Source of the DNA: Burkholderiaceae bacterium
GTDB taxonomy: Bacteria; Pseudomonadota; Gammaproteobacteria; Burkholderiales; Burkholderiaceae_C
DNA: 46,260 nt
NCBI GenBank assembly: GCA_024709845.1
Contig: JANJVX010000227.1
Location: 1 to 46,260 of the forward strand
Direction: 5' to 3'
In this document: positions 19,589 to 22,977 of the stretch, piece after piece
Layout of the letters: the number at the start of each line of letters is the position of its first letter
How positions within the stretch are numbered: position 1 is the stretch's first letter
Notes under the pieces: generated by a model
Seen by the model: only the letters and a program-made list of their open reading frames with translations
What the model was told of the DNA's origin: nothing
The model's database searches: none
Translations under genes and position numbers: made by a program

Positions 19589-21205
19589 TCAGGCCAACAT
19601 TTGCGCAGGCGCCCCTGAGAGGCGCTGTGCCAACCCCTGCGCGAGCCGGTTGACAATGCCATAGATGGACAGCTGGGGGTTCGCGCCCACACTGGTCGGG
19701 AAGATAGAGCCGTCATGCACGGACACGTTGTCCACCTGCCAGTGCACGCCATCGGGGCGCACCACGCCCAGCGCCTCGGTGCCCGCCAGGCCGCAGCCCC
19801 CCATCACATGGGCGCTGACCACCTTGGTCAGCAAGGGCTTCATGGGCAGCTGTTCAATGGCGGCCCGGGCCTGTGCCCAGGAGGTGTAGGGCCGCGCCAT
19901 TTCGTGCACCGGAAGCACCTCCTGCGCGCCCGAGGCGAACTGCAGCTCGGCCATGGCCAGCAGGGCGCGGCGCGCGCCGTCCATCACGAAATCGGTCAGC
20001 GGATAGTCGAGCGCCGCAGAGCCGTCGCCCCGCAACTGCACCCGCCCCCCCTGCGATTGCGCATGGAAGCCGTCGCGCAGCAAGGCCAGCAGCACATGGG
20101 TGCGCGGAAACTTGGCCAGCAGGTCGGCATGTGTCTGCCCATGGCCCGGCAGCGTCGTCGCCAGAATCACCGGATGCAAGGGCGGCGCCTCCAGCTTGAA
20201 GCCGATGGGGCCGTCGATGGGCTGGGTTTCCAGGAAATGGTCGGTATAGATGGTTTGCGGCGCGCCCGACCAGCCCTCCACCTTTTGCTCCAGCACGGCG
20301 GCGGACATCACCACCGGGTGCAGAAAAGTGCGCGTGCCCAGGCGGCCGTGCGGGTCGGGTGCCTTGGAGCGCAGCAGCACGGCCGGAGAATTGATGGCGC
20401 CGCCCGCCAGCACGAAATGCCGCGCCACGACGGTGGTATGCGCACCGCCCTGCACCGCCCCATTGGGCTGTACGGCCACGCAGCGCAGCGCCTGGGCCTT
20501 GCCGCCGCTCATCACCAGCTGCTCGGCGCGCGTTTCGACCAGCAGCGTGGCCCCCTTGTCGAGCGCCTCGGGAATGGTGGTCACCAGCATGGACTGCTTG
20601 GCGTTGGTGGGGCAGCCCATGCCGCAGGAACCCAGGCTCCAGCATCCCTTGACGTTGCGCGCAATGGCCGCCGAGGGAATGCCCAGCTTGTCGGCGCCGC
20701 GCCGCAGCAGATCGTTGTTCTCGTTCGGTGGCACCAGCCACGGCGTGACGTTGAGCCGCCGCTCGGCCTGCTCGAAATACGGGTCCAGGGCCGCGCGGCT
20801 GAAGTCGTCGAGGCCAAAGTGCTGCTGCCAGTGCTGCAGCGTGGGCACGGGGGTGCGGAAGGAGCTGGTCCAGTTCACCGTGGTGGAGCCCCCCACGCAG
20901 CGGCCCTGCAGGATGGAGATGGCCTTGTCCGTGGTCTTGCGGCTGCCGCTCTCCTGGTAGAGCGCGGGGTAGGCCTCGGACTCGCGCTGGCGGAAATCGC
21001 TGCTGCTCTTGAGCGGCCCCTCCTCCACGATCACCACATTCAGGCCCGCGCGGGACAGCAGTTCGGCGGTGATGCCCGCCCCCGCGCCCGAGCCCACGAT
21101 GGCGACGTCGCAGGTGATTTTTTCAGGCAGGGCGCCATGCGCGCCGCCCAGCACTTTCCAGCCGCGCTGCAAACCATCGCGAATGGGGTCGGGAAAATTG
21201 CTCAT
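19589..21205 (-). CDS. GMC-family FAD oxidoreductase
   Basis: 538 aa. The FAD-binding Rossmann motif is VAIVGSGAGAGITAELLSRAGLNVVIVEEG (about 34-63). The GMC segment GRCVGGSTTVNWTSSFR follows, then LAGGAINSPAVLLRS, and the C-terminal SAHVMGGCGLAG...NVSVHDGSIFPTSVGANPQLSIYGIVNRLA with the active-site His. It oxidises alcohols, sugars or sterol-like compounds; the substrate is not readable. No signal peptide is seen, but the gene downstream of the small Tat-signal protein (18 nt gap) suggests a dehydrogenase complex in which the partner supplies export, as in gluconate 2-dehydrogenase-type enzymes. No cytochrome c subunit gene is adjacent. Confidence 0.92.
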   Translation of the reverse strand: MSNFPDPIRDGLQRGWKVLGGAHGALPEKITCDVAIVGSGAGAGITAELLSRAGLNVVIVEEGPLKSSSDFRQRESEAYPALYQESGSRKTTDKAISILQGRCVGGSTTVNWTSSFRTPVPTLQHWQQHFGLDDFSRAALDPYFEQAERRLNVTPWLVPPNENNDLLRRGADKLGIPSAAIARNVKGCWSLGSCGMGCPTNAKQSMLVTTIPEALDKGATLLVETRAEQLVMSGGKAQALRCVAVQPNGAVQGGAHTTVVARHFVLAGGAINSPAVLLRSKAPDPHGRLGTRTFLHPVVMSAAVLEQKVEGWSGAPQTIYTDHFLETQPIDGPIGFKLEAPPLHPVILATTLPGHGQTHADLLAKFPRTHVLLALLRDGFHAQSQGGRVQLRGDGSAALDYPLTDFVMDGARRALLAMAELQFASGAQEVLPVHEMARPYTSWAQARAAIEQLPMKPLLTKVVSAHVMGGCGLAGTEALGVVRPDGVHWQVDNVSVHDGSIFPTSVGANPQLSIYGIVNRLAQGLAQRLSGAPAQMLA

Positions 21206-21223: not shown

Positions 21224-21730
21224 TCAGATGGCCATAGGACCGGGGTAGCCCACCACGGACCAGGTGCTCTCTTCGGAGAAATAGGCACCGCCCACGATCT
21301 CGTGCAGCGCCAGATAGGCCTGCTGGCGCACCGCCAGGCTGGAGAAGCGCATGCCATCCAGGGCGGCCTGCACCTGGGCGTCGGTGGCATCGGGCCAATC
21401 CGTGGCCAGGCCCGCCAGCCCCAGGCGCCCCGGCGCGGTGCACAGCAGCCCCACCAGCTGTGACAGTTCGGCCTGCACATGGGGCGGCAGGTTTTGCGCC
21501 AGCGTGTCGATGCGCTCGACCATGCCTTGCACCGCCTGCGCCCGGTCCTGCGGGCCGGTCGGCAGGGTGCCCTGGAGGATGGCGCGCCCCAGACTGGCAA
21601 ACAGCGCGCGGGCGGGCGCGGTCAGCCGCCCGTTGTCCAGCCCGGGCCGCAGCAGCACTGCGGCACCTCCGGCCAAGGCCAGCGCCACGCCCGAAACCAG
21701 GCCCAGCTTCAAGAGGGATCTTCTTTGCAT
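21224..21730 (-). CDS. Small Tat-signal partner of GMC oxidoreductase
   Basis: 168 aa. The N-terminus MQRRSLLKLGLVSGVALALAGGAAVLL is a twin-arginine-type signal (RRSLLK). The mature part has helical Leu/Ala-rich segments and ends STWSVVGYPGPMAI. The layout resembles the small subunit (subunit 3) of gluconate 2-dehydrogenase-type complexes that accompany and help export a GMC flavoprotein. It lies upstream of the GMC gene with an 18-nt gap. Probably it carries the FAD subunit across the membrane in a folded state; this is inference from gene context. Confidence 0.82.
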   Translation of the reverse strand: MQRRSLLKLGLVSGVALALAGGAAVLLRPGLDNGRLTAPARALFASLGRAILQGTLPTGPQDRAQAVQGMVERIDTLAQNLPPHVQAELSQLVGLLCTAPGRLGLAGLATDWPDATDAQVQAALDGMRFSSLAVRQQAYLALHEIVGGAYFSEESTWSVVGYPGPMAI

Positions 21731-21897: not shown

Positions 21898-22977
21898 TCA
21901 TCCAAGGGACTGGTATTCCGGCGTTTCAAGCGGCTCCAGCCGGCGTGCCCGCCAGTCCAGCACCGCTTTGCGGACATGCATTTTTTCAGCCAGTGCGGGA
22001 AACTGCGCCGCGATCACCCCGGCAGCGAAATCTGCCAGAAAGGCCGACTTGAGCACGGCACGGGCGCGGTCCATCCCGATCTCCTCATAGGGCACCGAGG
22101 CAAGCAGCAGGAAGCCATCGTCCGGAATGCGTCCGCGCGCCATGTTGGCCTCGATGATGCTGGCCGCCTTGCCCACCGGGTCGGCCAGATCGGGGCTGTA
22201 GGGGCCGACAATCAGGGCCAGATTGGGCATGTGCAGGAAGTCAAAGCCCCTCCCCAGGCAGATCATCCACTCGCGGTGCTCGATGTCGGCGGCGCGGTGC
22301 ATCTGGCGCACCTCCCGGATGTGCGCCTGGTTGCCGCACAGCAGCGGCAACAGGTCGTGGCGTATCTGCCGTGGCATGTCGGGAAACAGCGCGGCCAGCC
22401 GCTGCATCAGCCCATCCTCATCAAGCCCGTCCGCCTGCGACAAGTCCAGAACCTCTCCCTGCCCACCGTGGATCAGCAAGGCATCCTCGTCGGTCTCGAA
22501 GCCGCACAGCAGCGGGTACACGGTGCCGTGGCCCAGGCCAAACACCGACTCGACCTGCGCCTTGATATGGCGCGTGTGCGCAATGGCGGCGGCCGTGTCG
22601 CCATTGAACCCGGCGCAACCACGGTGCACGCTGCCGCGCGAGAAGTGGTAGGTGATGACGAGCAGCACCTGCCGTCCCTCGCGCACGCACCGCTGCACAT
22701 AGCCCGCGAGCACCTCGCCCAGATGCGGCCAGCCCAGGTCGAAAATTCCTCCCAGGTTGCGAAACGGCTGGATGATGCCCAGCGGCGTATTGGTGGCCAC
22801 CGGAATGTTGATGCGTCCATCCATGCACTTGAGCACCGCAATGGCCGTGGGATGCAAGGCCTGGTAGCGCTCGCGCGCCAGCCAGTTTTCGGGGCTGCCA
22901 AAGCGCGCGGCGTAGTCGCGCGCACGCTCGAAAAGCCAGTCGATCCGCTGGTTGATCGGTTTGCCGTGAATGTCCAT
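21898..22977 (-). CDS. Divergent beta-carbonic-anhydrase-like protein
   Basis: 359 aa from MDIHGKPINQRIDW. The longer ORF adds low-quality upstream sequence. Near residue 50 is KCMDGRINIPV, which fits the beta-CA CxDxR zinc/dyad motif (C51, D53, R55); 67 residues later comes SVHRGCAGF, fitting HxxC (H118, C121). Order and spacing match beta-carbonic anhydrases (zinc held by Cys-His-Cys), but the protein is far longer than the usual ~220 aa, with an extra C-terminal ~200 residues containing further His and Cys. It may resemble carboxysomal CsoSCA in being extended, but there are no carboxysome genes here. It would interconvert CO2 and bicarbonate if active. No signal peptide. Confidence 0.6.
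   Translation of the reverse strand: MDIHGKPINQRIDWLFERARDYAARFGSPENWLARERYQALHPTAIAVLKCMDGRINIPVATNTPLGIIQPFRNLGGIFDLGWPHLGEVLAGYVQRCVREGRQVLLVITYHFSRGSVHRGCAGFNGDTAAAIAHTRHIKAQVESVFGLGHGTVYPLLCGFETDEDALLIHGGQGEVLDLSQADGLDEDGLMQRLAALFPDMPRQIRHDLLPLLCGNQAHIREVRQMHRAADIEHREWMICLGRGFDFLHMPNLALIVGPYSPDLADPVGKAASIIEANMARGRIPDDGFLLLASVPYEEIGMDRARAVLKSAFLADFAAGVIAAQFPALAEKMHVRKAVLDWRARRLEPLETPEYQSLG

Follow-up and report, generated by a model that had tools for sequence, protein, structure and literature searches.

The question raised by this locus is what kind of enzyme is encoded by a gene with the motifs of a beta-carbonic anhydrase (beta-CA) and a long C-terminal extension, in a place where carboxysome genes are not seen. 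The window, meaning the whole stretch of 46,260 nucleotides analysed here, is one whole contig of the host genome (G000), and the gene occupies positions 21898..22977 on the minus strand, with its ATG start codon at 22977 and a product of 359 aa, coordinates on which this analysis and the initial annotation agree. The MDIH start is common to the protein and its close relatives in the alignment. Since full-length relatives occur across many genera and several phyla and the dN/dS is 0.08 against the sister genome G013, whose copy is 91% identical to the window protein, the ORF is a real gene and more than a chance reading frame; together with a dN/dS of 0.13 against Acidovorax defluvii (L039), the frame is under purifying selection. 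The answer to the question is that the window protein is CsoSCA2, a compact non-carboxysomal carbonic anhydrase of the CsoSCA type, matching every feature tested of a class that is already published.

The assignment is based on Pfam, NCBIfam, alignment, and a structure model. The protein scores above the cut-off of PF20686 (CsoSCA_cat), the Pfam family for the catalytic part of CsoSCA, the carbonic anhydrase of the carboxysome shell, and has a partial match to the NCBIfam CsoSCA model TIGR02701 (E 2e-11) that falls below the equivalog cut-off (43.4 vs 241 bits), while no match to PF00484 (Pro_CA) was reported at E<=1. A PDB search with a profile of 83 relatives returned CsoSCA chains only (best E 1e-9); an iNOS match (3hr4, E 5e-5) seen before that disappeared once the profile was used and was taken for chance. 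The model built from the alignment of the 83 CsoSCA2 relatives reached a pLDDT of 90 and a pTM of 0.87; an earlier one, built on 4 sequences, was of poor quality with a pLDDT of 60 and was set aside. The top Foldseek matches were the CsoSCA structures 8THM, 2FGY, and 9G4T (365-394 columns, E 4e-17 to 3e-16, TMq 0.69-0.73), with single canonical beta-CAs far behind (E >= 1e-3) and the tandem enzyme 1ddz at 2.5e-7. Because the model folds onto CsoSCA, the unrelated fold that the initial annotation had named as an argument against its own beta-CA proposal is not what is found.

Homology to CsoSCA extends along both the catalytic and the C-terminal domains. The last ~200 residues align with the CsoSCA C-terminal domain in sequence, profile, and Foldseek comparisons, and the model and Foldseek match CsoSCA end to end; therefore the C-terminal half, first described as unrecognised and as a possible source of a new function or partner binding, corresponds to an already known part of CsoSCA, a degenerate second beta-CA domain that has diverged and carries no zinc (PMC11086599). 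At the other end, the model has helices at residues 8-26 and 29-41, a short two-helix N-terminus, and 50 residues precede the first zinc cysteine in comparison to about 165-195 in carboxysomal CsoSCA; judging from the alignment, the protein lacks the N-terminal domain through which CsoSCA is anchored to Rubisco and the shell. The contacts of the dimer and of the hexamer are cut short as well. Identity to carboxysomal CsoSCA is only ~22%, and since the TMq values are likewise limited, the fine geometry of the active site has to be taken as predicted.

Conservation was examined in 83 CsoSCA2 and 22 carboxysomal CsoSCA sequences, using the CsoSCA active-site residues of PMC9164163 Table 2. Seven residues, C51, D53, R55, H111, C121, H234, and E236, are invariant in 83/83 and 22/22 sequences and align with C173, D175, R177, H242, C253, H397, and E399 of H. 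neapolitanus (Hn) CsoSCA, respectively. On the minus strand, the predicted zinc ligands are encoded at 22825..22827 (C51), 22645..22647 (H111, within YH[FYW]S), and 22615..22617 (C121), the Asp-Arg dyad D53-G54-R55 at 22813..22821, and H234-R235-E236, which carries the H397 and E399 equivalents, at 22270..22278. The CxDxR noted initially at 51-55 is thus present and invariant in the 83 relatives. The string HxxC at 118-121 is also literally there, but its histidine does not hold as a zinc ligand: H118 (22624..22626, minus strand) is a histidine in 27/83 CsoSCA2 sequences and a glutamine in the 91%-identical sister. Because H111 is conserved and H118 is not, the predicted ligand order is C51 - H111 - C121, and the zinc histidine assigned from the alignment is H111, not H118. 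The residues R73-N74 (22756..22761, minus strand) form the RN motif of canonical beta-CAs, and CxDxR-x17-RN, with exactly the spacing of a canonical beta-CA from the same genome, occurs in 83/83 CsoSCA2 and 0/22 carboxysomal CsoSCA sequences, a contrast added by the present analysis. D246 (22240..22242, minus strand) aligns with Hn D409, a position that is acidic in the RuBP-independent HnCsoSCA and lysine in the RuBP-regulated Cyanobium enzyme (PMC11086599); as it is D in 82/83 CsoSCA2 sequences and E in one, RuBP control is not expected, and the window protein would be RuBP-independent.

CsoSCA homologs outside carboxysome loci have already been described (PMC9164163, PMC11086599). The name csoSCA2 was given in 2022 to a compact variant with a 40-residue N-terminus, yet to be studied (PMC9164163), and in 2024 the same orphan cluster, of which A0A080M7C6 is an example, was reported with a hook-less N-terminus and neighbourhoods containing hydrogenases or permeases (PMC11086599); according to both papers, the class is described from genomes and still awaits laboratory study. 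The window protein has the seven residues, the ~40-residue two-helix N-terminus, a location outside a cso locus, and a place in the separate cluster, the compact proteins splitting from carboxysomal CsoSCA in the tree with an SH-aLRT of 100%. CsoSCA2 is widespread: among the GTDB species genomes, at least 285 contigs encode relatives, and those examined in the tree belong to Pseudomonadota, Thermodesulfobacteriota, Myxococcota, and one Nitrospira record; a search of viral contigs found no csoSCA2 relatives, and PADLOC gave no match. The carboxysomal enzyme may descend from CsoSCA2, as proposed from the distribution of the latter (PMC9164163), and the retained CxDxR-x17-RN agrees with such an origin without proving it.

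The position outside a carboxysome locus, already noted by the initial annotation, holds from the gene content of the window, and no RuBisCO was found in G000 or in G013. In G000 there is likewise no carboxysomal CsoSCA and no second PF20686 match; this genome is only 79% complete, so that the absence of RuBisCO and carboxysome genes rests partly on the sister of the same genus, which is 93% complete. Among 25 genomes of the genus that were searched, csoSCA2 is confined to these two, and canonical beta-CAs are present in the host genome. Two minus-strand genes close to csoSCA2, for a GMC oxidoreductase (19592..21205) and for a 168-aa protein with no family match (21227..21730), were considered as functional partners and rejected: the pair is found, independently of csoSCA2, in genus members that lack it, and its genes are therefore bystanders. 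The 168-aa protein has a twin-arginine-like start and is encoded beside the GMC oxidoreductase, of which it is possibly the small subunit, in all members of the genus that were inspected. An extra antiporter operon of G000 and G013 was dropped as a candidate carbon pump, its gene sizes and order being like those of a second Mrp-type operon. In G004, a member of the same genus without csoSCA2, a NuoL-like gene adjoins a DabA gene (PF10070) at L123:7207-11336.

In other lineages the neighbours of csoSCA2 often include DAB, SulP, or hydrogenase-like proton-pump genes. Among 80 loci, which are the best matches to the query and are mutually related, not random, antiporter-type genes (PF00361) lie within 10 kb of csoSCA2 in 29; thinning the set at 85% identity leaves 35 loci, 11 of them with such a gene. 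The expected proximity is roughly 1-2%, as estimated by assuming a few PF00361 clusters in each genome. Three arrangements are seen repeatedly. In the first, DAB genes occur with DabA and often with SulP, DabA adjoining csoSCA2 in 10 loci; in the second, SulP is accompanied by a hydrogenase-4-like complex, with cbbL alongside in G038; in the third, seen in Geobacteraceae and kin, a HyfB-like gene precedes csoSCA2 on the same strand at a distance of 34-96 bp (12 loci). The CxxC motif is absent from the large subunit of the hydrogenase-like complexes (0/10 sequences), which are therefore not NiFe hydrogenases. Where published accounts name hydrogenases as neighbours, these loci suggest that csoSCA2 is connected with pumps for inorganic carbon; literature searches returned nothing relevant on a SulP/Hyf/CsoSCA connection.

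Single loci illustrate this variety. The pair of a HyfB-like (PF00361) gene and csoSCA2 is seen at L064:7952-11050, with equivalents in L046, L048, L054, L055, L056, L061, L065, L076, L085, L086, and L103, and in many loci it is followed by the hydrogenase-4-like complex without NiFe ligands. L036:2-19817 (G038) brings together SulP, a hydrogenase-4-like complex, csoSCA2, a LysR-type regulator, and the RuBisCO large subunit. A divergent csoSCA2, with 38% identity to the window protein, lies near Rnf-like genes at L034:7460-14285 in G146; this genome also encodes a carboxysomal CsoSCA and gave no Pro_CA match above the cut-off. In L138 (G607), ~6 kb separate csoSCA2 from what is probably the gene of a carboxysomal CsoSCA in the same genome.

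The window protein is very probably a cytosolic, zinc-dependent beta-class CA of the compact CsoSCA2 clade that interconverts CO2 and bicarbonate without Rubisco, a shell, or RuBP control. The catalytic domain would contain the single active site, in which C51, H111, and C121 would hold zinc, D53-R55 would gate it, and H234 and E236 would complete the site, and the two domains would form a fused pseudo-dimer in which the C-terminal half is catalytically dead. The activity, the cytosolic location, and the physiological role that we infer would place the enzyme beside the canonical beta-CAs of the host, likely supplying bicarbonate to ordinary carboxylases or balancing CO2 and pH in a lineage where no RuBisCO was found. 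The beta-CA-like chemistry first proposed is upheld as a prediction from conserved residues. The protein may instead be catalytically silent or gated, by analogy with DabA2, whose ligand set is of the same kind and which, when purified, showed no spontaneous CO2 hydration (PMC13144422).

The reading from which the analysis started, a canonical beta-CA with C51, H118, and C121 as zinc ligands and an unrelated new C-terminal module, can appeal to CxDxR, the literal HxxC, and the canonical RN spacing; it is contradicted by conservation and fold, given the variable position 118, the unreported PF00484, and a C-terminal half that aligns with that of CsoSCA, and is extremely improbable. That the protein is an inactive or repurposed CsoSCA2, serving as a sensor of CO2/bicarbonate or decaying after horizontal acquisition, would suit its occurrence in two of 25 genus genomes that were searched and the canonical beta-CAs already available, yet every active-site residue is kept and the dN/dS values are 0.08-0.13, which makes this improbable.

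It is less easy to set aside, although still unlikely, that CsoSCA2 serves energy-coupled uptake of inorganic carbon as its CA partner; it would act at the membrane with pumps of NuoL/HyfB-like, DAB, or SulP type so that CO2 is trapped as bicarbonate, the window copy having moved horizontally and lost its context. The PF00361 frequencies, the closely spaced HyfB-like pairs, the DabA neighbours, the G038 locus beside cbbL, and the lack of NiFe cysteines all point this way. On the other side, no pump-type neighbour was found in the window, in G013, in Acidovorax defluvii L039, or at nine more distant loci; beta/gamma loci have the pumps on the opposite strand and therefore no shared operon with csoSCA2; and the sampled loci are related best matches. 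A bolder version, by analogy with DabB-DabA, makes CsoSCA2 the catalytic half, on the cytosolic side, of an energy-coupled trap for inorganic carbon that has yet to be described, with the HyfB-like/CsoSCA2 two-gene unit of Geobacteraceae and kin beside the hydrogenase-4-like complex without NiFe ligands and with free copies, such as that of the window, derived from it or ancestral to it; this is doubtful.

As a cytosolic CsoSCA2, the preferred reading, the protein can be compared with four known systems. It shares with the CsoSCA2 class (the second variant of PMC9164163 and the orphan cluster of PMC11086599) the length, the short helical N-terminus, the active and defunct domains, the seven active-site residues, and the location outside a cso operon; the CsoSCA2 of Candidatus Accumulibacter phosphatis, a species named in PMC9164163, is 69% identical to it, and no separating feature was found, the host being an Acidovorax-like Burkholderiales lineage in which no RuBisCO was found. 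With carboxysomal CsoSCA (2FGY, 9G4T, 8THM) it has in common the fold, the predicted zinc site, the dyad, the H397/E399 equivalents, and the C-terminal domain, whereas it lacks the N-terminal hook and the Rubisco-binding region, has H-x9-C in place of H-x10-C, and keeps, without a carboxysome, the RN motif that the carboxysomal enzymes do not have. Canonical beta-CAs (Pro_CA, PF00484) share CxDxR-x17-RN and, presumably, the Cys2His zinc chemistry; in contrast to them, the window protein leaves the HxxC histidine unused, does not match PF00484, and has a single predicted active site per fused pseudo-dimer. In DabA (PF10070), too, there are two beta-CA-like domains and a single Cys2His zinc site (PMC13144422); unlike the window protein, it is much larger, belongs to another family, and works with the membrane partner DabB.
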